From Bacteroidota bacterium (GTDB taxonomy: Bacteria > Bacteroidota > Bacteroidia > Chitinophagales > BACL12): DNA of 64,000 bases. The notes beneath the pieces were generated by a model, which saw nothing but the letters and a program-made list of their open reading frames with translations, had not been told where the DNA came from and ran no database searches. Position 1 is the stretch's first letter; each line of letters starts with the position of its first letter. The translations under genes and the position numbers were made by a program. This document shows, piece by piece, positions 5,228 through 61,586 of the stretch. The DNA is taken from contig WGOA01000014.1 of NCBI GenBank assembly GCA_016124275.1, positions 1-64,000 on the forward strand, written 5' to 3'.

Positions 5228-6175
5228 TTAAGCACAACAGGTTTCCAGCAGCCGGTTGTAGTTAGGCCGATCGCCAGCGCTCTCGTGCACATACCCAGAA
5301 ATAACTTCACCCTTGTGCAACAAAAACACCCCTGGCATTTGAAAGGAATCGCCCACTTCTTTGCCAATCACATAGCCCCGCGAAACAAGCAATTGCCCGA
5401 AACGGAGCAATGCACGAGGACCGAACAATTCTCCGGCACGGCCTTTTCTTAAGCGGAATTTTTTATATAAAATACTTTCAGCATCTGAAATTTGGTCCAA
5501 ATGTTCCAAATTGTATTTCTGCAAATGCTCGCGGGCTTCTTCCGGGGATACCATGTAAACCAAAACAACCCGAGTGCCACAGCGCGTAAAATCCTGATGA
5601 ACCTGCGCAATTTGATCCATAGTGTCTTTGCAGAACGGGCACCCGAAATGGCGCAAAAAGACCAGGAGCACTTTGCTTTCCTGGGTCAGTTCCATCAAAT
5701 TGTCGCCCCGGGTCGTATCAAACAAGTCCAACGGGTATTCCTTGCTGCTGAATGTGGCAATCAACAAATCATCCGTCCGGTAAGAATTCCTGTAAATCAT
5801 GTAAACCACAAGCCCCAGCAAAGGCACCCAAATGACCCAATTGCTGAGCACAACAGGCAAGAAACCCGGCTCGGCATTGCCCGTTTGCAGATCTACCCAG
5901 TAAGCAACCGAGCAAATTCCGCTAAACACGAGACCGGCAACACTGACCACCCATTGTCGGAAGGGGTCAAAAGAGGCCAGGGCATAGGCTATGCCCAGGC
6001 AGAAGGTCACAATGCCTATAATCTGGAGGCTAAACGGCGAGACCGTACTGTTTGAAACCATCCATGCGAGCATACGCCCGGGGATGAACGACGCAATCAG
6101 ACCCCAGCCCAAATGATACAGGGCGGCTGTCATTAAGATGGCTTTGGACCATTGCCTTTCTGGATGAACTTGCAT
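5228..6175 (-). CDS. Membrane-anchored SelL-like / AhpC-TSA-like redox protein
   Basis: A 315-residue protein in two parts. The N-terminal 135 residues hold about four hydrophobic segments (around 12-34, 46-66, 73-95 and 105-130) with no assigned function. The C-terminal 180 residues form a thioredoxin-fold peroxiredoxin-like domain with a CxxC active site in RHFGCPFCKD, then VVLVYMVSPEEA and a late MPGVFLLHKGEVI strand. The CxxC matches the position of the UxxU/CxxC of SelL-related redox proteins. I infer a thiol oxidoreductase tethered to the inner membrane; which face the domain occupies cannot be told from sequence. The C-terminus ends with vicinal cysteines (TCCA), which may be redox-active or metal-binding. 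Confidence 0.75.
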   Translation of the reverse strand: MQVHPERQWSKAILMTAALYHLGWGLIASFIPGRMLAWMVSNSTVSPFSLQIIGIVTFCLGIAYALASFDPFRQWVVSVAGLVFSGICSVAYWVDLQTGNAEPGFLPVVLSNWVIWVPLLGLVVYMIYRNSYRTDDLLIATFSSKEYPLDLFDTTRGDNLMELTQESKVLLVFLRHFGCPFCKDTMDQIAQVHQDFTRCGTRVVLVYMVSPEEAREHLQKYNLEHLDQISDAESILYKKFRLRKGRAGELFGPRALLRFGQLLVSRGYVIGKEVGDSFQMPGVFLLHKGEVISGYVHESAGDRPNYNRLLETCCA

Positions 6176-6221
6176 AAGCTTAGTGGAAACTCGAGGTAAA
6201 ACAAGTCGGGTTGCGAAAGGT

Positions 6222-7724
6222 TCAGCTACGGCCTTTAAGGTTTACGGCTTCTCCGTCAGCGGTTTCTTTGTATTGCCTGAAAGCCAGAAAACCCGCCAGG
6301 CAAAAGATCAACGCAGCAAGGGCAGAGGCTCGGATTCCACCGGTTTCCCACAGCAAAAAGGTAGGGAAAATGAGCATGGCTGCTGAAGTTCCTAACTTCA
6401 TGATCAGCGTCCGCACAGCGAAGTACATGCCCGCCAGCGATTCTCCTGCCCGTTGGCTGTGTGTATCGGCCAGATCCCCGACAATGGCATTGGGCAGAAT
6501 ACCAAAAGCCGCCAGGGCCACTGCAGCCATTCCCTGGAGCAGCAAAATGGCTACCCCGGAAAACGCTGAGCCAGTTTGCAAACTCGCTGTAAGGGCAAAA
6601 GCGCCTCCAAAGCACAAGAAGGCACCCAACAAAACGTTCCGTTTGCCCCAGCGTTGTGCAGCGAGATTGACTGGAACATAGCAGACAAAACTTAATACAA
6701 ATACAAGCAGCATAAAAGCACTTGCGTAACTCTTGTCCCGACCCATCAGGGCCACCACATAATAAGCCACCCCCATTTGAATGAAGGTCAGCGCAAGCCA
6801 ATACAGAAAATCTGAAAGCGCAAACCAGCGGAAATTGCGGTTGGACCAGACCTGCCGAAAAGCGGCGCGGACGTTGCCGGAATGGCCGTTTGAGGTGGGT
6901 CCCGCACCGACACCCTGGGTTGCAAGCGGCGGAGTTCCTGCCGAACCTTCTGCCTGACCCACTGCCTGACCCATTGCCAGACCTTCTGCCTGACCCGCTT
7001 GGGACCCTTCGCTTCGTTTGGTGTACCGATGCTCGTCCAGGAAAAGCGCTGGCACCAACATGGCTGCAGCGGCAATTCCGGAAAAAAGCAATAGGCTACG
7101 CTGAAAAGCCGCCAGCGAATCCATGCCCTGCCCTTCAAACACATCCTGCAACACGTATATCTGTGCGCCACTAGCAAAGCCCAAAGCCCAGGTAACAGAA
7201 ATGGCAGTAGCCAGGTGCAGACGCTCGCGAGCCGTTTGACCCAATTCTGCAATCAAGGCGTTGTAGGGCACCACATACAAGGTCATGAAAAAGTAGAACA
7301 GGGTAATGCACACCAGCAGCCAACCCGTATTGGCTGCAAAGGCCGGCCCAAAGGGCGGGAAAAAAACCGCGGCGGAAAAGAACGCAAAGGGCAGCGCTGC
7401 CATGAGCAAAAACACCCTTCGCCTCCCAAACCGCGACTTGGAGCCATCGGACCAATGTGCCACCATGGGGTCTGTAATGGCATCAAAAATGCGCCCGCCA
7501 AAGCCAATCAGCCCGATGACCGTCAGGCCGGCAAGGACACTGCCCTGAAACAAAAAGGCCGGAAAGAGCCTAGTGGATGCCGCACCATCAACCCCTGCCT
7601 CCTGCAAGGGCATGTAGAAATACGCCAACAGGTTCAACACGCCATACGAAGCCAGCGACCAGCCAAACTGGCCGGTGGCATAAATGGCGATCATGCGGTT
7701 TCTGGAACCACCGGTTCTGCTCAT
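6222..7724 (-). CDS. MFS transporter of the GPH (glycoside-pentoside-hexuronide:cation) family
   Basis: A 500-residue inner-membrane protein with about 12 hydrophobic segments. Near the N-terminus, FDAITDPMVAHWSDGSKSRF followed by GRRR is the loop 2-3 signature of the MelB/GPH group, which symports sugars with Na+ or H+. The central cytoplasmic loop (about residues 235-280) is a low-complexity insert rich in GQAEG and GQAVG repeats, encoded by imperfect 12-15 bp repeats near 6930-7010; such length is unusual for the family. Its start overlaps the stop of the upstream lipase-like gene by four bases (ATGA at 7721-7724), so the two are translationally coupled and may act on the same nutrient. 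Confidence 0.88.
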   Translation of the reverse strand: MSRTGGSRNRMIAIYATGQFGWSLASYGVLNLLAYFYMPLQEAGVDGAASTRLFPAFLFQGSVLAGLTVIGLIGFGGRIFDAITDPMVAHWSDGSKSRFGRRRVFLLMAALPFAFFSAAVFFPPFGPAFAANTGWLLVCITLFYFFMTLYVVPYNALIAELGQTARERLHLATAISVTWALGFASGAQIYVLQDVFEGQGMDSLAAFQRSLLLFSGIAAAAMLVPALFLDEHRYTKRSEGSQAGQAEGLAMGQAVGQAEGSAGTPPLATQGVGAGPTSNGHSGNVRAAFRQVWSNRNFRWFALSDFLYWLALTFIQMGVAYYVVALMGRDKSYASAFMLLVFVLSFVCYVPVNLAAQRWGKRNVLLGAFLCFGGAFALTASLQTGSAFSGVAILLLQGMAAVALAAFGILPNAIVGDLADTHSQRAGESLAGMYFAVRTLIMKLGTSAAMLIFPTFLLWETGGIRASALAALIFCLAGFLAFRQYKETADGEAVNLKGRS

Positions 7725-8941
7725 TCCCGGAGCACTTCAAACCATGACCGGGCGGCCAGCAACACGGGTTGAACACAACCGCCGTGATCCAAAGGGGTGC
7801 CCCCGGCCAGCGACTCCCCATTGATGGCCTGTACGGTAACGCCCTGCGTCGCGTAGGCATCGCGGGCGTTGATCGCATTGACATAGCTCACCTGATCGTC
7901 GCCCGTGCAATAGTAAACCCGCGTGGGCGAAAGCGGCGCCTGGTCCAATTGCGTGTTGTCTTCCAGGGCCTGGCGGAAAGGATTGTTCGGATTGGTTAAA
8001 AAATCGTTGAACACATCGTCCCGAACAATCGTCTTGGGCATATCCGGCACCATCGCATTGAGTTCCCCGTAATTGACCAGGCCATTAAACATGGGCGGCA
8101 GCGTGGTCGCCCAGGGCTCCTTTAAAAAATCGGCGGGCGTGGGATACATGTCATACACCTCGTTGTAGGCCAGCATCAGGTAAGGCAGGTAAAAGGGCGA
8201 AGCATATGGCTCGTCCAGCAACAGCATGTCCGTTTGTGCACCAGCCAGATCGTAAGGGCCCGACATAGGCGCAGCCGCAGTAATCGTAAACTCGTCCGTA
8301 TGCCGCGATTCAATTTCCTGCACCAATGCCATGGTGGAATGGCCGCCTTGCGAATAACCAAAGAGGAACAACTGCCCGTTTTCATCCACATTCAACTCTT
8401 CTAAAACGCGTTTAGAAGCCCGCAGCATATCTACAGAGGCGGTGGCCTCCGATTTGGCATGGCAATAAGGATGCAAACCCGGCGAATCGCCAAGGCCCAG
8501 GTAATCAGGCAGCGCCGTGATGTAGCCTGTGGCAGAAAAGATGATGCCGATGGCAATTTCACCGCTCTGGCGGGAAGGCACATCCTCCTTCAACAAAATG
8601 GTGCCATGTTGATAAGAGGACATGGGGAAGGGCCCCGTTGCTCCGGTCGGCACTACAAGGGCGCCGGACGCTTCGGTTCGCGCCTCGCCCCGGGCATCAA
8701 TGGTAGCATAGCGAACTTTGTATATGTCTATTCCATTGCTTACCGGAATGGCCACCCCTACGATGCTGAGCAGGGAATCCACCTGGTCCACCGTCCACGA
8801 ATCCAGCAATTCGTACCCCAGCAATTCGCCGCGATACGCGGGATCATCGGTGTCCGGCACCACATCGTCGCCCATACAGGACGCCAAAAGGAAGACGCCC
8901 AGCACGGGCAAAAAACGCCGCAGGGTCGGCAGCCAATTCAT
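7721..8941 (-). CDS. Secretory lipase-like alpha/beta hydrolase, lipoprotein
   Basis: A 406-residue protein. The ATG at 8941 is preferred over one ten codons upstream because it gives a standard lipoprotein signal ending LLASC, with the cysteine as lipidation site. The mature part has an alpha/beta-hydrolase fold: YQHGTILL near the oxyanion region, nucleophile elbow GYSQGG, a late acid region in YYCTGDDQV, and LDHGGC providing the probable catalytic His. This arrangement resembles the secretory lipase (LIP) family and related bacterial esterases. It is anchored in the outer or inner membrane and could release substrate for the coupled GPH symporter. The substrate is unknown. Confidence 0.82.
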   Translation of the reverse strand: MNWLPTLRRFLPVLGVFLLASCMGDDVVPDTDDPAYRGELLGYELLDSWTVDQVDSLLSIVGVAIPVSNGIDIYKVRYATIDARGEARTEASGALVVPTGATGPFPMSSYQHGTILLKEDVPSRQSGEIAIGIIFSATGYITALPDYLGLGDSPGLHPYCHAKSEATASVDMLRASKRVLEELNVDENGQLFLFGYSQGGHSTMALVQEIESRHTDEFTITAAAPMSGPYDLAGAQTDMLLLDEPYASPFYLPYLMLAYNEVYDMYPTPADFLKEPWATTLPPMFNGLVNYGELNAMVPDMPKTIVRDDVFNDFLTNPNNPFRQALEDNTQLDQAPLSPTRVYYCTGDDQVSYVNAINARDAYATQGVTVQAINGESLAGGTPLDHGGCVQPVLLAARSWFEVLRE

Positions 8942-9162
8942 GAAACCGGGGAAAGGGCTTTGGTCAAGCATAACAGGAGTAAGATGGGTTAGGAAAGAAG
9001 CACGCTTAAAAGTAGGTTAGCGCAAACAAGCCACCAAATCGGAATTTTTGTCATTTATTTTCAACGCAAAGCCTGATTCCCGGCCAGAATGGCAGCGCGG
9101 CCCCGGCAAATCGCGGATGGTCCGGCATTTGTTGCGGGAACAGTACTCATTCCCCGGTTACC

Positions 9163-11814
9163 ATGAATTTCAATCAATACACCCTCAAAGCCCAGGAAGC
9201 CGTAGCGCAAGCCCAACAATTGGCCGCTTCGCGCAAACACCCGGGCATCGACTCCACGCACTTGCTTCAGGCACTCTTGCAGCAGCAGGAAGAAGTGACG
9301 GCCTATCTGCTCCGCAAAGCCGGCGTTTCTTCAGAGAAACTCAATCGCGATGTGGAAGCGCTTTTGGCTAAAATACCAGCGGTAAGCGGCGATACGCAGC
9401 CTTACCTGACGCGCGAAGCAAACGCCGTTTTGAGCAAAGCGCAAGACAGTATGAAAAAATACGGTGACGAATTCGTTACCGTAGAACATCTTATGATTGG
9501 CCTGCTTGCCGGAAGCGATGCGGTGGGCAAATTGCTTCGCGAATCCGGTTTAAACGAGAGCGATCTGCAAGCCGCCATTCAGGAATTGCGAAAAGGCAGC
9601 AAAGTCAATAGCCAAAGTGCGGAGGCGCAGTACCAGGCACTGGACAAATACGCTATTAACCTCAACGAGCGGGCCCGAAGCGGCAAGCTCGATCCGGTCA
9701 TCGGTCGCGATGAAGAAATTCGCCGCGTACTACACATTCTCAGCCGCCGAACAAAAAACAACCCGATGTTGGTTGGCGAGCCTGGTGTGGGCAAAACCGC
9801 TATTGCGGAGGGCATCGCGCATCGCATTGTGTCTGGCGACATTCCCGAAAACCTGAAGAGCAAAACCATTTTCTCGCTGGACATGGGCGCATTGATCGCC
9901 GGCGCTAAGTACAAAGGCGAGTTTGAAGAGCGGCTCAAAGCAGTGGTCAAGGAGGTCATCCATTCCGATGGCGACATTATCCTTTTTATCGACGAGATTC
10001 ATACGCTGGTCGGGGCAGGAGCGGGAGAAGGCGCCATGGATGCAGCCAACATCCTCAAACCCGCGCTGGCCCGCGGCGAACTTCGCGCAGTGGGGGCAAC
10101 CACGCTCAACGAGTACCAAAAGTATTTCGAAAAGGACAAGGCCCTTGAGCGGCGTTTTCAGAAGGTCATGATCAACGAGCCTTCGCAAGAAGACGCGGTG
10201 AGCATTTTGCGCGGATTAAATGAGCGCTACGAAACCCACCACGCCGTCACCATCCTGGATGAAGCCATTGTTGCTGCGGTTGACCTTTCAGCCCGCTACA
10301 TCAGCGATCGTCAACTGCCGGACAAGGCCATTGACCTGATCGATGAAGCGGCGGCCAAGCTGCGGCTTGAAATGGACTCCGTGCCCGAAGAACTCGACGA
10401 AATTGAGCGCCGCATCCGCCAGTTGGAAATTGAACGCGCGGCTATTGAGCGCGAAGGGCAGGGGGCTAAGACCGCCGAGCTTGTTCGCCAACTCGCAGAC
10501 CTCAGCGCCGATCGGGATGAATTGAAAGCCCGTTGGTTGCAGGAGAAGAGCATGGTGGATGCCATTCATGCGCGCAAAGAAGAAATTGAGCAGGCCAAAC
10601 TCGATGCTGAACGCGCGGAGCGCGAAGGTGATTTTGGCCGCGTCGCGGAGTTGCGCTACGGCAAGATTGCCCAAACGCAGGAGGCGGTTAAAAAACTGGA
10701 AGCAGAAATGGCGGCCATGGACGGCGGACGCCGCATGATGAAGGAAGAGGTGGATGCCACAGACATTGCGGAGATCATTGCCAAATGGACGGGCATTCCG
10801 GTGGCCAAAATGCTGGAAACCGAGCGAGAAAAGCTGCTTCGCTTAGAGGAAGAACTGCACCGCCAGGTGGTGGGTCAGGACGAAGCCATTGTGGCGGTAG
10901 CAGACGCCATTCGCCGCAGCCGGGCGGGCTTGCAAGATCCTTCCAAGCCCATCGGTTCTTTCATCTTTTTGGGCACAACAGGGGTAGGCAAAACAGAGCT
11001 GGCAAAAGCGCTGGCCAGTTTCCTGTTCAATGACCCCAACGCTATGGCGCGGATTGACATGAGCGAGTACCAGGAACGCCATGCCGTTAGCCGCCTCATC
11101 GGCGCGCCTCCAGGCTATGTCGGCTACGATGAGGGCGGGCAACTGACCGAAGTGGTGCGCCGCAAACCTTACAGCGTGGTGCTCCTCGATGAGATCGAAA
11201 AAGCCCATCCGGATGTGTTCAACATTTTGCTCCAGGTTTTGGACGACGGCCGCTTAACGGACAACAAAGGCCGGACGGTCAATTTCAAAAACACCATCAT
11301 CATCATGACCTCCAACCTGGGTTCCCAAATCATTCGGGAACGCTTTGAAGGGCTGGAAACCGATGACGAGCTTTTCGCTGCCAGCGAGACGGCCCGCCTG
11401 GAAGTCATGGAGCTGCTTCGCCGCAGCATTCGCCCGGAATTCCTGAACCGCATAGACGAAATCCTGATGTTCAAACCGCTGCGCCGCTCCGAAATTGCCC
11501 AGGTAGTGCGCCTGCAGTTGAATGCCCTGGAAAGCCAGATGCGGGCGAAGGGCTTTGCGATCCAGTTCAGCGATGAGGCGGTAGCTTACCTGGCCGATGC
11601 CGGATTTGATCCGCAGTTTGGCGCCCGGCCGCTGAAGCGGGTCATCCAGCGCGAGGTGGTCAATGAATTGTCCAAGCGCCTGTTAGCCGGTACCATAAGC
11701 CCAGAACAAGGCATTCTGGTGGATCGTTTTGACCACAACGGCATTGTCTTCCGCAACCTTACTGCATCAGCGTCTTCCGCTTCCCCCATGCCGCAGGCAG
11801 CACTGCCACAATGA
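9163..11814 (+). CDS. clpB: ATP-dependent disaggregase ClpB
   Basis: An 883-residue Hsp100 chaperone that rescues aggregated proteins with DnaK. Visible in order: Clp N-domain ([14 protein letters not shown] onward), first AAA+ module with Walker [10 protein letters not shown] near residue 205 and Walker [11 protein letters not shown], the long coiled-coil M-domain (about 400-530, rich in [15 protein letters not shown]-type heptads) that distinguishes ClpB from ClpA/C, and the second AAA+ module with Walker [10 protein letters not shown] near 603 followed by a sensor-2/D2-small domain (FGARPLKR). Length is normal. It is divergent from the lipase-like gene; no TAnnTTTG box or known heat-shock element is evident upstream. 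Confidence 0.98.
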
Positions 11815-53932: not shown

Positions 53933-56900
53933 ATGAGAAATGTCTATTTATTTTTATTTTTATTTTTTAGTTATACATGGACTTCTTCCCAAATTATCCT
54001 TAACGAAGGCAGCAACAAGAATTACAGTGCGCTGGCAGACGAAGACAATGAATACCCGGATTGGGTAGAGCTTTACAACGCGGGGACCACTGCGGTGAAT
54101 CTGGGCGGCTATGCGCTTAGTGATGATGCCGACGATCCGGCCATGTGGGTCCTGCCTGACGTTGTATTGGGTGCAGGAGAATTCGCCGTATTCTTTTGCA
54201 GTGGAAAGGACCGCTACGCTACGTCACCGATGACCAATGTAGCCAGCATATCCGGATATTCCCCCATTGTTGGCTGGAATATCCACCCCTTTTCGACCCC
54301 TTTTAACTGGGACGGCAGCTCCAACCTTTTGATTAACATTTGTGCCTACAGCAGTGCCGGGTACATTACCAATTCGGTTCATCGCCAAACGGCTACCTCG
54401 TTTGCGTCCACCCAATATGCGTTTGAAGATGGCAGTGATGCTGCCTGCTTCGACGTCAGTGGTTCTCAAGCCTTCCAGCGACCAAACCTCCGCATCAACG
54501 GAGTTGTCATCGGAACCGGAACGATCGTGAATTCGCCCTTCGATTATCCGGCTCCATACGGCAATTGGTATTGGGGAGCCCGCCACCAACTGTTGGTACG
54601 CGCCTCCGAGCTTACTGCTGCGGGGCTTGGCCCGGGTAGTCTTTTTGCCTTTGGCTTAGAGGTGGAATCCACCGATGTCGTGGTGTATACGTTGTTGGAT
54701 ATCCATGTGGGCCATGCCCTGGATGCTGAGTTGAACGGTACGTTTTACCCAGAGGGCGGTTTCTCCAATCATACCAATTTCAAAATCGACAGCGAAGGAG
54801 AGCAGGTCTATCTTTTTTCGCCTGGTGGCGTGCTCCTCAGCAGCCTTGATGTAGACCCGGAAGATGTGGCCGCGTCCTTACCCGACGTAAGCGTTGGGCT
54901 TTTTCCCGACGCCGCTGCGACCATAAGAACCTTTTTGCCTCCCACGCCCGGTGCCAGCAATAACGGATCCTTTCCATTCAGCAATCAGGCACTTGCGCCA
55001 GTAATCTCGGTGGAAGGGGGATTTTTCACCGCGCCGTTTTCTGCCTCTCTTACAGACCCCAATGACCCGCCAGCCACAGTTCGCTATACCCTGGATGGTA
55101 GCGAACCCGACGAGAGTTCAGCCCTTTGGAATGGTACACCAATTTTTATATACCAAACTTCCGCGTTGCGTGCGCGGGCCTTTTCGCCCGGAATTTTACC
55201 AAGTCCGGTTACCAGCACTACCTATTTTCTAAATGTGGATCACCTGACCCCGGTCTTGTCGGTGATCACGGACAATGATAATTTATACGGTTCTGGCGGA
55301 ATTTTCGACAATCCTGCCGAAGATTGGTTGCGGGCTTCCCATGTAGAATACTATGATTCCACCAAGGCCCTTGTTTTTTCCCAGCGCGCAGGCATTCGTA
55401 TGGACGGCGGATTTGGCGGCAGCCGCTGGCAACCGCAGCGCTCGTTCCGGGTCAAAATGAATGATGGGGTTCTTGGTGACGGACCCATCCTGCATCGCGT
55501 CATACCAGACCGGGCCACCAGGACGCTGTACAGCGATTTTTACCTGCGCAACGGCAGCAACCAATACCAGGTGTTGCCCTACAAAGATGCAGCCCAGGTA
55601 AAGATGATGGGAAAAAATACGAATAACTATTATTCTGCCTGGCGACCCATTTCTGTTTACATCAATGGTGGGTATTTTGGTTTGTATGAGTTGCGCGAGA
55701 AGTTCAATACCGAAATGTTCCAGTTAGCGGATGGCGCTGATCCCAATTCAGTTGAACTGCTTTCGGTCAGTGCATTTTACGGTTTTGTCTTGCGGGCCGT
55801 TGAAGGTTCCATTCAATCGTTTTATGATTCTTACAATGCGTTTTTGGCGCTTAATCCTGCAGACACCGCGTATTGGTCAGCTGCTGATGCCTATTTTGAT
55901 CTGGACTACTATTGCGACTACATTATTGCAGAGTCCTGGATGGGCAACGTGGACTGGCCTTGGAACAACATTAAGTTGTACCGCTCTGACGCTACCGGTG
56001 GCGCCTGGCGATTCTGCGTTATCGACCTGGAACTGGCGCTTGCGCCCAATTCCTGGACCGATTGCTACATGGATCACATTGATTTTCTACAGAACCAGGA
56101 CCCAAACAATCCCTATGTCAATGTTTGGTTGCGCAGTATGCAAAACGATCGGTTTAGAAATTACTTTATTAACCGTTTTGCCGACCAGATGAACAGCGTC
56201 TATAGACCTGAACGTTTGGTTGCTATGGAGAATGCCATTTTTGAACAAACGGTAGGGGAGATGCCTAACCAGTTCCAGCGCTGGGGCGATCCGTTTAACG
56301 TACCCGCACAGGTCACTGCTTTTTACGAAAACCATCTGACGTTTCAGGGTGAATTGATTTGCCGCGGCCCACAGGTGCGCGACGACATCCAAAACAATCT
56401 TGGTCTTCCCCGCCAGGTAAACGTTACCTTGGATACAGAGCCTGCTGAGGCAGGAACCATCCGGATCAGTACGCTGGAACCGGAGACCTATCCATGGTCG
56501 GGCGTGTACTTTGATGGAGTTCCGGTAGGCATTGAGGCAGTGGCTGCACCGGGATTCCGTTTTTCTCATTGGAAGCCTAATCCGCTGCTGAACGACACCT
56601 TGCAGCCCGGTTTTCTCGACACGCTGCAGGCCGATGCGCTGATGTTCAAAGCGGTCTTTGAGGCCTTGCCCAGCGCCCTGGAAGATAACGAACCCGGTTT
56701 GGGGGCTCGTCTTTATCCATCACCGGCCACACTAGTGGCACAACTTATTGTTCCGGAGGCTGCAGCAAAGGAACAGTGGCGATGGAGCCTGCTCGATATG
56801 CAGGGTCGGATTTTGCAGCGCGGTGCTTTTCCAACTGGCCAAACCAGTGTTTCGCTTGATTTGGCTCAACTGGCCGAAGGTTTGTACCTGGTGCGGATAG

Positions 56901-56947
56901 ATCACCCTTCCGGTCAGTCACAAACCTTTCGATTGGTGAAACAATAG
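53933..56947 (+). CDS. Secreted multidomain protein: lamin-tail, chitobiase-like, CotH kinase-like and T9SS domains
   Basis: A 1004-residue surface protein with signal peptide VYLFLFLFFSYTWTSSQ. A lamin-tail domain (about 20-110: ILNEGSNKNYSALADED, NLGGYALSDDADDP) is followed by a beta-rich region, a chitobiase C-terminal-like domain (about 365-435: ATVRYTLDGSEPDES, LRARAFSPG), and a CotH-type spore-coat kinase-like domain (about 440-790: GIRMDGGFGGSRWQPQRSF, YLRNGSNQYQ, GYFGLYELREKFN, DWPWNNIKLYR, CVIDLELAL). The C-terminal 80 residues (ARLYPSPATLVAQLIV, LAEGLYLVRIDH) are a type A sorting domain. CotH proteins phosphorylate proteins; whether this one does is unknown. Confidence 0.92.
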   Translation: MRNVYLFLFLFFSYTWTSSQIILNEGSNKNYSALADEDNEYPDWVELYNAGTTAVNLGGYALSDDADDPAMWVLPDVVLGAGEFAVFFCSGKDRYATSPMTNVASISGYSPIVGWNIHPFSTPFNWDGSSNLLINICAYSSAGYITNSVHRQTATSFASTQYAFEDGSDAACFDVSGSQAFQRPNLRINGVVIGTGTIVNSPFDYPAPYGNWYWGARHQLLVRASELTAAGLGPGSLFAFGLEVESTDVVVYTLLDIHVGHALDAELNGTFYPEGGFSNHTNFKIDSEGEQVYLFSPGGVLLSSLDVDPEDVAASLPDVSVGLFPDAAATIRTFLPPTPGASNNGSFPFSNQALAPVISVEGGFFTAPFSASLTDPNDPPATVRYTLDGSEPDESSALWNGTPIFIYQTSALRARAFSPGILPSPVTSTTYFLNVDHLTPVLSVITDNDNLYGSGGIFDNPAEDWLRASHVEYYDSTKALVFSQRAGIRMDGGFGGSRWQPQRSFRVKMNDGVLGDGPILHRVIPDRATRTLYSDFYLRNGSNQYQVLPYKDAAQVKMMGKNTNNYYSAWRPISVYINGGYFGLYELREKFNTEMFQLADGADPNSVELLSVSAFYGFVLRAVEGSIQSFYDSYNAFLALNPADTAYWSAADAYFDLDYYCDYIIAESWMGNVDWPWNNIKLYRSDATGGAWRFCVIDLELALAPNSWTDCYMDHIDFLQNQDPNNPYVNVWLRSMQNDRFRNYFINRFADQMNSVYRPERLVAMENAIFEQTVGEMPNQFQRWGDPFNVPAQVTAFYENHLTFQGELICRGPQVRDDIQNNLGLPRQVNVTLDTEPAEAGTIRISTLEPETYPWSGVYFDGVPVGIEAVAAPGFRFSHWKPNPLLNDTLQPGFLDTLQADALMFKAVFEALPSALEDNEPGLGARLYPSPATLVAQLIVPEAAAKEQWRWSLLDMQGRILQRGAFPTGQTSVSLDLAQLAEGLYLVRIDHPSGQSQTFRLVKQ

Positions 56948-57876: not shown

Positions 57877-58110
57877 ATGTCCCGTATTACCGTCGTTCTG
57901 TTTCACCTTCTCCTCACGGCATCCGTGACAGTTTGGGCCAACAGCGAGCGCCAGCTTGCTCAAGTTGAACGAGCATCTTTGGAGGGTTCAGTGGTCTCTG
58001 ACCAGCCTGTGGTTTCAGATTCTGAGATACTGCAAATCAGCGATGGGGTAACGACCTCAGACCGGGCAACCGACGCCGATAAACAAAAGGAGAGCTCCCC
58101 AACAATTTGA
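57877..58110 (+). CDS. Small exported protein of unknown function
   Basis: A 77-residue protein with a signal peptide (SRITVVLFHLLLTASVTVWA) and a short, polar, Ser/Thr/Asp-rich mature part with repeated VVSD motifs; no cysteine or histidine outside the signal. A good promoter and its own start support it as a gene. It precedes the cluster of exported proteins at 58297-61190 by 186 bases and has a separate promoter, so it may or may not belong to it. Confidence 0.6.
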   Translation: MSRITVVLFHLLLTASVTVWANSERQLAQVERASLEGSVVSDQPVVSDSEILQISDGVTTSDRATDADKQKESSPTI

Positions 58111-58227: not shown

Positions 58228-58255
58228 TTTGCCGGGAGCTTTGACATTAACTTTG
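58228..58255 (+). promoter_or_regulatory. Promoter (TTTG ... TAACTTTG) of the Cys-motif protein gene
   Basis: The -7 box TAACTTTG at 58248-58255 has a TTTG at 58228-58231 (16-base spacer). The predicted leader before the TTG start at 58297 is about 40 bases. Confidence 0.7.
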
Positions 58256-58296: not shown

Positions 58297-58659
58297 TTGA
58301 AGCGACTTTCATTTTATTTACTTACGTCCGTTTATTTTCTGGCCTTTAGCCAGCCTTTCCTTCCGTTTTTGCAATACGCGCTGAACAGAGAATTTATCGC
58401 TGCAACATGGTGCGTTAACCGCGATGTTCCTGATTCTGATTGCGAAGGCCGTTGTTTCCTGAACAGCGCATTGCAACGCAGTACCGATCAGCAACCAGCC
58501 CCGGGCACCCAGATTGAGGTCCGCTCCCTGGCACCACACAACCTTGATTCATCGCAAGACTTTGGTCCCCAGCCAGTTATGTTCTGGGTAGTACCGGATG
58601 ACCCCATCCACTATTCTCCCCCGTATCAGGGATTGATCACTCCGCCTCCGAGAGCCTGA
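58297..58659 (+). CDS. Exported Cys-motif protein (CxN...CxGxC type), possible metal-related
   Basis: A 120-residue protein from a TTG start with signal or anchor RLSFYLLTSVYFLAFSQPFL. The mature part begins with FLQYALNREFIAATWCVNRDVP and DSDCEGRCFLNSAL: a cysteine triplet CVN...CEGRC that recurs in small Bacteroidota proteins of the pattern NxE(Y/F)I..xCVN....C.GKC(Y/F)L. Such genes often stand beside transport or metal-related genes, as I recall. The rest is Pro-rich and ends PPPRA. Function unknown; metal or thiol chemistry is a guess from the cysteines. It heads the cluster 58297-61190. Confidence 0.62.
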   Translation: MKRLSFYLLTSVYFLAFSQPFLPFLQYALNREFIAATWCVNRDVPDSDCEGRCFLNSALQRSTDQQPAPGTQIEVRSLAPHNLDSSQDFGPQPVMFWVVPDDPIHYSPPYQGLITPPPRA

Positions 58660-58857
58660 GCAGGGCTATAGCGCCATTTAGTCAGTAATTGCGTGCTGTA
58701 TTGCCGCAATGCAAGTTCTCTTTCTGCCCCTTATCAGGTGCATTGGCGCATCCCCACGGGGACCCAAACCTCGCACGCTGCTCCACGGCGTTGCGGAGGT
58801 TCCGAAATGTTTCCCGCATTTACGTCTTTTCATAAGTGATTAATTCGAATACCCCAC

Positions 58858-59325
58858 ATGAATTTTAACAGAATTTTGGGCGCTTCCAAACGCCCTTCCT
58901 CCCATACGTTGCACGCAGTTCAAGCTTCCACTTTCGGGATCATTTTTGCTGCCCTGGTCACCTTCAGCGCATGCAAAGAAGACCACCACCACCACGATGA
59001 ACCCTATGATGTAACCATCAGTTTCCTGGAGCCCAGCGCGGATGCCACCCTTACCAGTGGCGATGAGGTTCATATGGAAGTCTTGTTTACCAGTCCCGGT
59101 ACCATTCACAACGTCAAAGTGCGTGTGATTCGGGAATCCGACCAGGCAGACGTCTTTTTTTGGGAAGAACACGTACACGAAGAAAGCGGCAGCTACGAAT
59201 TCCACGAGCACCTCACGTTGACCAGCACCGACCACGAGGCATTTACGATTGAGGCCAGCACCTGGGACCACGACAGCGAACTTGAGCCCATCGTTTTAAC
59301 GCGTGCTTTTCACTTGCATCCATGA
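58858..59325 (+). CDS. His-rich lipoprotein, DUF4625-like
   Basis: A 155-residue lipoprotein: signal ASTFGIIFAALVTFSAC with Cys40 lipidated, followed at once by KEDHHHHDEPYD. The mature domain has the immunoglobulin-like outline ISFLEPSADATLTSGDEVHM and VKVRVIRESDQ seen in Bacteroidota DUF4625 lipoproteins. Eleven or more His are spread along it (EEHVHEES, YEFHEHLTL, AFHLHP at the end), far more than background, so zinc or copper binding is plausible. Its last four bases overlap the start of the barrel gene (ATGA), so the two are coupled. Confidence 0.75.
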   Translation: MNFNRILGASKRPSSHTLHAVQASTFGIIFAALVTFSACKEDHHHHDEPYDVTISFLEPSADATLTSGDEVHMEVLFTSPGTIHNVKVRVIRESDQADVFFWEEHVHEESGSYEFHEHLTLTSTDHEAFTIEASTWDHDSELEPIVLTRAFHLHP

Positions 59326-60248
59326 CCCCACTTTCAAACGCTAAAGTGCTCCTTGTCGCTGCCTTGCTGCTCGGTAATGTCCGGGGAATGCAGGCTTGCA
59401 CTGCCTGCGGCTGCAGCGCCAGCGGCACGGATTTCGGGGTGCTCCAAAGCTGGGGCGTGCACCTCCTCGGGCTTCAATACCGGTTGGACCGCTTTGACAA
59501 CGGCACCACAGAAGCCGGGCTTAAAAGCGCCGATTACCTGCACACCGTTAACCTCAATGGCATCTGGAGCCCGATGGACCGTTGGCAGCTGCAAGCACAA
59601 GTACCCTTTCGCACGCAAGTTCGCCTGACAGGCTACCAGCGCCAAACGCGAGCCGGCTTAAGCGATACCTGGTTAATGGGCCGTTACGCCATTTGGCGCT
59701 CCGACCCGGATGGCGCCAACCCTGAAGACAGCGCAAGGGTCAGTGGCTGGGTTTCTGTTGGCGGTGGGGTCAAGCTACCCACTGGCTCTTATCGGGCCGA
59801 ACAAGATGGAAAAGGCTTGCCCATTAATAGCCAATTGGGTACCGGCAGTGTGGACTTTTTGGCGGAATTGCGCGCGCAAGCCGGCATGGAGCGCGTCGCC
59901 TTTCAGGGGGAAGCCGCCTACCGCTACAACCTGGCTAACCCGGAAAACTACCGCTTTGGCCGACAAGTCTCCGGCGCCATTGACTGCCGTTGGTTCCTGC
60001 CTAAATCCGAGCGCCGGTTTGGTCTGCTCGGCGGGTTGTACGGCGAGCATTTTGGCCGGGACAATCGAGGTGAATACTGGAGAGCCAATACCGGGGGAAG
60101 GGGGCTGTTCGCCACAGCAGGCGCTTTTGGTTCAACAGGCCCTTGGTCCGCTTCCCTGCGGTACCGGCATCCCTTGGTTCAAAACTACGCAGAGGGCCTG
60201 GTCCAGGCCCAGAGCCCTCTGGACGTTAGTTTTATTTATGGATTTTAA
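59322..60248 (+). CDS. Predicted outer-membrane beta-barrel with CxxCxC at the mature N-terminus
   Basis: A 308-residue protein with signal peptide SNAKVLLVAALLLGNVRGMQA and a mature start CTACGCSASGTDFGV. The remainder alternates aromatic and polar residues as in a transmembrane barrel (HLLGLQYRLDRF, RWQLQAQVPFRTQV, SGWVSVGGGVKLPTG, RVAFQGEAAYRYNL, WSASLRYRHPLVQNYAEG) and ends in F, a usual barrel terminus. It resembles the transporter-labelled barrels of this phylum that start CxxCGC. Coupled to the His-rich lipoprotein upstream and nine bases before the next lipoprotein: an operon of three envelope proteins. Substrate unknown. Confidence 0.75.
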   Translation: MTPLSNAKVLLVAALLLGNVRGMQACTACGCSASGTDFGVLQSWGVHLLGLQYRLDRFDNGTTEAGLKSADYLHTVNLNGIWSPMDRWQLQAQVPFRTQVRLTGYQRQTRAGLSDTWLMGRYAIWRSDPDGANPEDSARVSGWVSVGGGVKLPTGSYRAEQDGKGLPINSQLGTGSVDFLAELRAQAGMERVAFQGEAAYRYNLANPENYRFGRQVSGAIDCRWFLPKSERRFGLLGGLYGEHFGRDNRGEYWRANTGGRGLFATAGAFGSTGPWSASLRYRHPLVQNYAEGLVQAQSPLDVSFIYGF

Positions 60249-60257
60249 TTTGATAAA

Positions 60258-60656
60258 ATGAAACAGAACATCTTCGGGATAGCCCTGCTGGCTGTCCTGC
60301 CCTTGCTCCCTGCTTGCCAGAAAGAAAACGGACCGCAGGAAGACACTGAAGCCCCTGTGATTTCGCTGAGCAGCCCTTCCACCGGAGCGGTCTATGCCTC
60401 CGGCGACCCCATTCCTGTGGTTTTTAGGATCACCGAAAACGATGAGCTCCATACCTGGGACATTGAGTTGAGGCGGGCCTCCGACCAATCACTGCTGACC
60501 AGCACGGGCGAGCACGACCATGCAACCGTCCTGGACATCAACGCCAACATCAGCGCCAGTGTCGGCGAACCGACGAATTGTCTGGTTCGGATTATTGCCG
60601 AAGACCACAACGGGAACACCGCGGAGCGGGAAGTTGCTATACGGATAGACCCTTAA
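60258..60656 (+). CDS. DUF4625-like lipoprotein
   Basis: A 132-residue lipoprotein with signal NIFGIALLAVLPLLPAC (Cys21 lipidated). It has the DUF4625-type outline (DTEAPVISLSSPSTGAVYAS, GDPIPVVFRITENDELHTW, DIELRR) and an HDH motif in STGEHDHATVLDI at the same relative place where the upstream lipoprotein has HxH. One free Cys (TNCLV) is present. It is 9 bases downstream of the barrel gene and so is part of the same operon. Role unknown; duplication with the 58858 gene is likely. Confidence 0.75.
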   Translation: MKQNIFGIALLAVLPLLPACQKENGPQEDTEAPVISLSSPSTGAVYASGDPIPVVFRITENDELHTWDIELRRASDQSLLTSTGEHDHATVLDINANISASVGEPTNCLVRIIAEDHNGNTAEREVAIRIDP

Positions 60657-60692
60657 GGGGCTTTAGGCTAGCTCGGGAAACCCTTAACCCGC

Positions 60693-61190
60693 TTAGGGTA
60701 GCCCGTAAAAATTCCTGACTTCGATGGCTTCGTTCTGCGAAGCATCGGAAACGGATACGGTCACAGAATACAAGGTGGAATCGCCCGCGCTGATGGTAAA
60801 GGTCCGGTTTACGGAAACCTGGTTCGCGCCAATGTTTTGCTCGGAATCGGTCCATACGGTGCTGCCGAAATTCTCGTTGACTACGCTGATGACCCAGGTA
60901 TCCAGCAGCACGTCATCGCTGGCTTCGAACGAAATGGGAACCTGCTGCCCAAGGCCAAACTCAGCGCCGTCCAACGGTTGCGCCACCGTGAGCTGCGGTT
61001 GCACAAGATCGTCTTTGTCGTCATCGCCGCAACCGGTTAAACTGCTTGCCAGGAGCCAGAATGCGGCCAAAAACAGCCCGCAAGAGGGCTTTTTCAGGGC
61101 ATTTAAGGCGTGCAGCCCACGGCTGACCCATGGGAATGGATGCGCAGAACCGCTTGCCTGAACCCTGAATCGGAAGGTTGTCTTGTTCAT
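60693..61190 (-). CDS. DUF4625-like lipoprotein without His motif
   Basis: A 165-residue protein from ATG 61190; the signal is preceded by a long polar region (about 30 residues), then LFLAAFWLLASSLTGC with the lipidated Cys. The mature domain (QPLDGAEFGLGQQVPISFEA, DDVLLDTWVISVVN, AGDSTLYSVTVSVSDASQN) has the same Ig-like outline as the two lipoproteins on the other strand but lacks the HxH element, so it may be a paralogue with a different role. It converges on the operon; the stop codons are 36 bases apart. The start is uncertain because of the long leader. Confidence 0.68.
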   Translation of the reverse strand: MNKTTFRFRVQASGSAHPFPWVSRGLHALNALKKPSCGLFLAAFWLLASSLTGCGDDDKDDLVQPQLTVAQPLDGAEFGLGQQVPISFEASDDVLLDTWVISVVNENFGSTVWTDSEQNIGANQVSVNRTFTISAGDSTLYSVTVSVSDASQNEAIEVRNFYGLP

Positions 61191-61586
61191 GACGGCGCTG
61201 GATTTAAGCCTTTGCTTACCATGAATGTAGCGAATTTGTACATTCCTCGTGCGGGGCAATGCTGCACTTCGCCCTAAAAGGGCCCCCAAACGCGCGATTT
61301 ATTGACGGGTAGGGTGCGGTCAGGTTGCCTCGTACACGCTTTGCGTCTGCCATTATTGCCAAGCACTATGCAAAATTGGCGGGTTTGGGGGCAAGCAGAG
61401 CCTTGTACCATGCAATTCTGGCGCAAAAAGAGCCCGGATGCTGCCTGACCACCACTTGGCATGTTTCGTGATGAAGGAAGGCTGTCCTGAGGTTAGTTGT
61501 CAAAACAATGGCGCTCAAGACATTCGCTAAACTGACATTCGAAACACACACACTCCGAAGTCAAAAGACCTAAAACTGCTTCAACG
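61191..61586. other. Region upstream of groES, no supported gene
   Basis: About 396 bases. I looked for a CIRCE element (TTAGCACTC-N9-GAGTGCTAA) and for TAnnTTTG and found neither, so how groESL is induced is not visible. Frames here (61274-61462, 61366-61551 minus) lack any protein features. Confidence 0.5.

Follow-up and report, generated by a model that had tools for sequence, protein, structure and literature searches.

Within the 64,000-nucleotide stretch of Bacteroidota contig WGOA01000014.1 that we analyzed (the window), five consecutive genes encode proteins that each begin with a hydrophobic export segment, and one of the five products (60258, DUF4625) passes a curated Pfam cut-off. 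The question raised by this locus is what such a set of exported proteins does and whether its members belong together. An earlier note, made from the sequence alone, had read the genes as a self-standing outer-membrane module for handling or sensing metal. The features of the locus are collected in Table 1, and genes are named below by their first coordinate.

Table 1. Features of the locus in the window.
Feature	Position	Strand	Basis and remarks
TAnnTTTG promoter-like (-7 type) box	58248..58255	+	exact match TAACTTTG; 42 bases before Cys gene start
Small Cys-motif protein gene	58297..58659	+	ORF; 120 aa, TTG start
His-rich Ig-like lipoprotein, DUF4625-like	58858..59325	+	ORF; 155 aa; lipobox SAC-K
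12-stranded outer-membrane beta-barrel gene	59322..60248	+	ORF; 308 aa; CTACGC preceding first strand
Second DUF4625-family lipoprotein	60258..60656	+	ORF; 132 aa; downstream of barrel gene
Third Ig-like-family lipoprotein, convergent	60693..61289	-	ORF; ATG at 61190 is the likelier start

The reading frames and their export signals were as the earlier note had described them, and lipoboxes (SAC-K, PAC-Q, and TGC-G) were found in three of the five products. The 58858 and 59322 genes overlap by exactly 4 bases and 60258 follows the barrel gene after exactly 9, again in agreement with that note. The proposed five-gene cluster, on the other hand, held for the four genes on the + strand only: 60693 is convergent and therefore lies outside the operon, with groES and groEL beyond it. 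The Cys gene has a promoter-like box in front of it and is separated from 58858 by 198 bases; it may or may not share the transcript of the other + strand genes. In the relatives L133 and L134 this gene is preceded by TATCTTTG. Just upstream of the Cys gene in the window there is also a 77-amino-acid ORF with an apparent signal peptide and no family match (57877-58110), and further away a gene for a secreted protein of 1004 amino acids (53933-56947), which combines lamin-tail and CotH kinase domains with a tail for type IX secretion.

The small Cys protein has no relative in Pfam, NCBIfam, or the PDB. It consists of one N-terminal hydrophobic helix, the motif C39-x9-C49-x-G51-x-C53, and a C-terminal PP; the motif and the PP end vary little or not at all among 31 relatives, with C49, G51, C53, and P118 invariant in the alignment of these sequences. 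HYC_CC_PP proteins (NF047658) are likewise small and exported, contain Cys, end in PP, and occur beside TonB receptors and MbnP/MbnH; however, there is no sequence match, and the resemblance is one of layout alone.

The three lipoproteins align with one another, although their relation to DUF4625 (PF15418), which the earlier note had suggested for all of them, differs from protein to protein. The 60258 product passes the Pfam cut-off of 27 bits (33.1 bits, E = 7.8e-08), the 58858 product is sub-threshold (16.5 bits, E = 0.011), and the 60693 product has no DUF4625 match. AlphaFold modeled the 58858 product as an Ig-like beta-sandwich (pLDDT 83), the fold of DUF4625 as well. A fold search with it returned only generic Ig-like matches and is therefore uninformative on metal. 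DUF4625 has no assigned function, and the window set differs from it in having conserved His positions: His84, His105-x-His107, and His138, which the 60693 product lacks. The 58858 product contains 16 His in 155 residues against a background of 2.2% (binomial P about 5e-7). The three potential metal-binding features singled out by the earlier note (CVN...CEGRC, HHHH, and CTACGC) are all present, but HHHH is particular to the source genome and does not occur in the family orthologues (L132-L134).

The barrel was modeled with 12 strands at a pLDDT of 84. Its nearest solved structures in a Foldseek search were FapF (5o67, E = 1.1e-09) and the COG4313 channel Pput2725 (4rl8, E = 1.8e-09), at TM scores of about 0.6-0.65 and 13-14% identity; the profile match to FapF was weak (E = 7.6e-4), and PF13557 was matched by 4 of 36 relatives and not by the window barrel itself. 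COG4313 and FapF barrels share with it the 12 strands and a segment preceding strand 1. In Pput2725 this segment fills the lumen, and COG4313 channels have been implicated in taking up hydrophobic molecules by way of a lateral opening (PMC4493636). By analogy, the N-terminal segment of the window barrel may occupy the lumen in the same way; residues 18-36, which include CxxCxC, were modeled at a pLDDT below 50. The window barrel differs from these channels in operon context and in its CxxC: C26xxC29 is invariant in 36 barrel relatives and the third Cys is kept in 30 of them, whereas no such motif has been described in COG4313 or FapF. We also considered CTACGC as a lipobox and rejected this, as four relatives place CxxCxC well downstream of the signal peptide, after a longer intervening stretch; the motif is thus tied to the first strand rather than to a lipidation site.

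To see how widely these genes travel together, we surveyed 295 genomes of the same class. A scan of genome contigs with the barrel as a single sequence gave no relatives; in the class survey, the single barrel sequence matched in 78 genomes, and the neighborhoods from the better-scoring of these provided 49 loci for analysis. A Cys gene adjoins the barrel in 46 of the 49, which had been found by the barrel alone, although some loci share a genus and the locus counts are not independent events. By best-hit labels, MbnP is in the run at 28 loci and a DUF4625-like lipoprotein at 22; an initial lipoprotein count of 28/49 took in cross-matches to MbnP, probably owing to the common lipoprotein signal peptide, and was replaced. 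Five loci have both, 23 MbnP only, 17 the lipoprotein only, and 4 neither, so MbnP and the DUF4625-like lipoproteins largely substitute for each other (p = 1.3e-5). The most frequent layouts were cys-barrel-lipoprotein (12 loci), cys-MbnP-MbnH-barrel (9), and cys-barrel-MbnP-MbnH (7).

All 22 MbnP-like neighbors scanned were PF20243, and the MbnP profile reaches a solved structure (7l6g). The gene after MbnP is MbnH-like, with CCP_MauG above and TIGR04039 below cut-off. By profile search, 163 of the 295 genomes encode the Cys protein, 131 the barrel, and 218 MbnP; 109 of the 131 barrel genomes also have the Cys gene (odds ratio 10, p = 1e-18), and among the 81 strong-barrel genomes 76 encode the Cys protein and 80 MbnP. 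As these same loci had supplied the sequences for the Cys and barrel profiles, the independent part of the survey is the single-sequence searches and the unsupervised clustering, and the picture they give agrees. HMA (CopZ-like, copper-chaperone-like) proteins are encoded near the Cys or barrel gene at three loci (L052, L157, and L160).

The conserved unit is the Cys protein, the 12-stranded barrel with CxxCxC, and the Ig-like His lipoproteins. The earlier note had looked to co-occurrence with metal genes or TonB receptors as support for its proposal, and the neighborhoods provide it: the Cys-barrel pairing, MbnP/MbnH in the run, the HMA proteins, TonB receptors next to the Cys gene at loci lacking the barrel, and, at one locus, a FUR-family regulator with a ZigA-like GTPase. 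These data support an outer-membrane module for metal handling, while the survey lent no support to a sensing role.

MbnP/MbnH systems (PF20243, TIGR04052, TIGR04039; CorA/CorB and MopE/SACCP by analogy) share operons with barrel and Cys genes in relatives. We rejected the window locus as a member of this system. None of its five proteins matches the MbnP domain, the MauG-like di-heme protein MbnH is absent from the locus, and DUF4625-like His lipoproteins stand in their stead. Both genes occur elsewhere in the source genome. Contig C5 carries a run of a Cys paralogue, MbnP, and MbnH; on contig C28, an HYC_CC_PP-like gene and a TonB receptor gene run divergently to MbnP-MbnH; and contig C8 has an MbnP domain and two tandem MbnH genes. 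The self-standing set of the earlier note must accordingly be given up, and the window locus is better described as a split version of the class-wide layout. An OprC-like receptor was not found in the source genome. The order cys-His lipoprotein-barrel is kept in three family members with orthologues of 58858; a genome of the same genus (L131) has cys-barrel-second lipoprotein plus the convergent third, and no copy of the 58858 lipoprotein was detected in it.

Two side observations concern these genes. The Cys paralogue on contig C5 (L125, 7207-7608), which directly precedes intact MbnP and MbnH genes, is interrupted by an in-frame TAG within the hydrophobic N-terminal segment, reflecting either decay or an assembly error. 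Tandem pairs of MbnH-like di-heme genes were seen at L127, L140, L142, and L143; those at L140 and L142 follow MbnP, with a small Cys-type gene and a long receptor-like gene in divergent orientation to them.

What occupies the site when the barrel is missing? At Cys-gene loci without a strong barrel, what follows the Cys gene is in most cases a TonB receptor. At six such loci the receptors are of one family, with OprC as the closest PDB relative (E = 6e-25) and TIGR01778 (TonB-copper) as the best NCBIfam match, at a score below cut-off. CxxxM and HxM, which are established copper ligands in OprC (PMC8610252), are both kept in 6/6. In genus g12, the same site holds either a barrel, with or without a preceding MbnP-MbnH (L033/L034), or a Met/His-rich YtkA-like lipoprotein followed by an OprC-like receptor (L145/L147); the Cys gene and the His lipoprotein are kept in both versions, and the outer flanks are 82-96% identical. 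A second exchange was found in genus g18 (L049 versus L154/L156), downstream of two electron-transfer-flavoprotein-like genes, with flank identities of 81-95% for L154 and 78-82% for L156. In two genera, then, the barrel's place next to the Cys gene is taken by an OprC/NosA-type receptor (TIGR01778). The window barrel itself is no such receptor: it has 12 strands, no plug domain, and no Pfam receptor domain, in contrast to the plug and 22-stranded barrel of TonB receptors. The two separate exchanges indicate that the job of the barrel cassette overlaps copper uptake, and besides MbnP/MbnH they are the strongest evidence for copper. We also noted Cys-rich stretches (SSCTCC, TCTCSMCISAC, and CNCGC) within or following the carboxypeptidase-like domain of three TonB receptors beside the Cys gene (L155, 8147-10624; L157, 5339-7822; and L161, 6082-8421).

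We read the module as one that uses a COG4313/FapF-like barrel where relatives have a copper receptor. On the strength of these sequence comparisons, the + strand genes (58297-60656) are probably a barrel-type version of an outer-membrane copper-acquisition locus. We infer copper as the metal and, because the barrel cassette exchanges with an uptake receptor, uptake as the direction of transport. In the mechanism that we propose, the barrel, with its COG4313/FapF fold, would be the conduit through the outer membrane, and its N-terminal CxxCxC segment would lie in or under the lumen and bind Cu(I), acting as a gate or a relay. Copper would be captured by the His lipoproteins, as it would be in other genomes by MbnP matured by MbnH, and the membrane-anchored Cys protein would hand it on within the periplasm. 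In the source genome, the MbnP/MbnH half of such a system would sit on another contig.

Several findings speak against this reading. The OprC-like and MbnH-like matches are below the NCBIfam cut-offs; a search for a conserved palindromic operator found none; the CxxCxC segment was modeled at low confidence; a DUF4625-like protein elsewhere adjoins a heme/ZnuD-like receptor (L148); and the known COG4313 and FapF barrels have been implicated in hydrophobic uptake and in export, respectively. In addition, one locus (L056 of genome G092, 5730-10706) clusters the Cys protein and barrel with a FUR-family regulator, a pair of two-domain His lipoproteins, and a ZigA-like GTPase, a putative zinc chaperone.

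This last locus points to a zinc version of the module, for which it is the best lead, and zinc acquisition is the main rival to the copper reading. It could be speculated that the DUF4625-like His lipoproteins, the Cys protein, and the barrel capture zinc under the control of Zur and that the MbnP/MbnH versions alone serve copper. His-rich lipoproteins suit zinc, and a FUR-family gene of the source genome encodes HHHHDEHVH and has weak NCBIfam matches that include Zur. We nevertheless consider this unlikely. The His lipoprotein of g12 stays when an OprC-type copper receptor replaces the barrel, strong-barrel genomes nearly always encode MbnP, a locus of the L056 type is just one of the 49, and no conserved upstream palindromic operator rose above shuffled sequence in 54 loci.

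Another possibility is copper export or detoxification: Cu(I) would leave through the barrel in the outer membrane, and the lipoproteins would act as buffers at the surface. The secretion channel FapF is the nearest fold and Cys-rich motifs would fit the buffering of Cu(I), although this is improbable given that the receptor with which the barrel cassette alternates is one for uptake. In a motif screen, no copper efflux gene adjoined the barrel, two His-rich P-type ATPases lying 8-9 genes off, and proteins of the CorA/MopE type are repressed by copper and tied to its acquisition (PMC3621798, PMC3912023).

Slightly less probable again is that the cargo of the barrel is an organic copper chelate or some other hydrophobic molecule, the metal motifs being secondary. 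This would be in keeping with the lateral opening and hydrophobic substrates of COG4313 channels (PMC4493636), but all 36 relatives keep the CxxC before strand 1 and the neighbors are metal proteins. Chance adjacency of unrelated exported genes, which the convergent fifth gene and the 198 bases after the Cys gene might suggest, is contradicted by the survey, with the same neighbors in 46/49 loci across a whole class, and can hardly be entertained.

For most bacteria, little is known of how copper gets across the outer membrane. OprC is the main characterised importer of ionic copper. The barrel described here, present in 131 of the 295 class genomes sampled, is a candidate for a widespread second outer-membrane copper component. 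It is linked to MbnP and MbnH, a pair that was given the heading 'mysterious partners' in 2013, since its range extends far beyond the methanobactin producers (PMC3621798). The residues of this candidate system can now be named: CxxCxC of the barrel, CxGxC of the Cys protein, and His84, His105, His107, and His138 of the lipoprotein.
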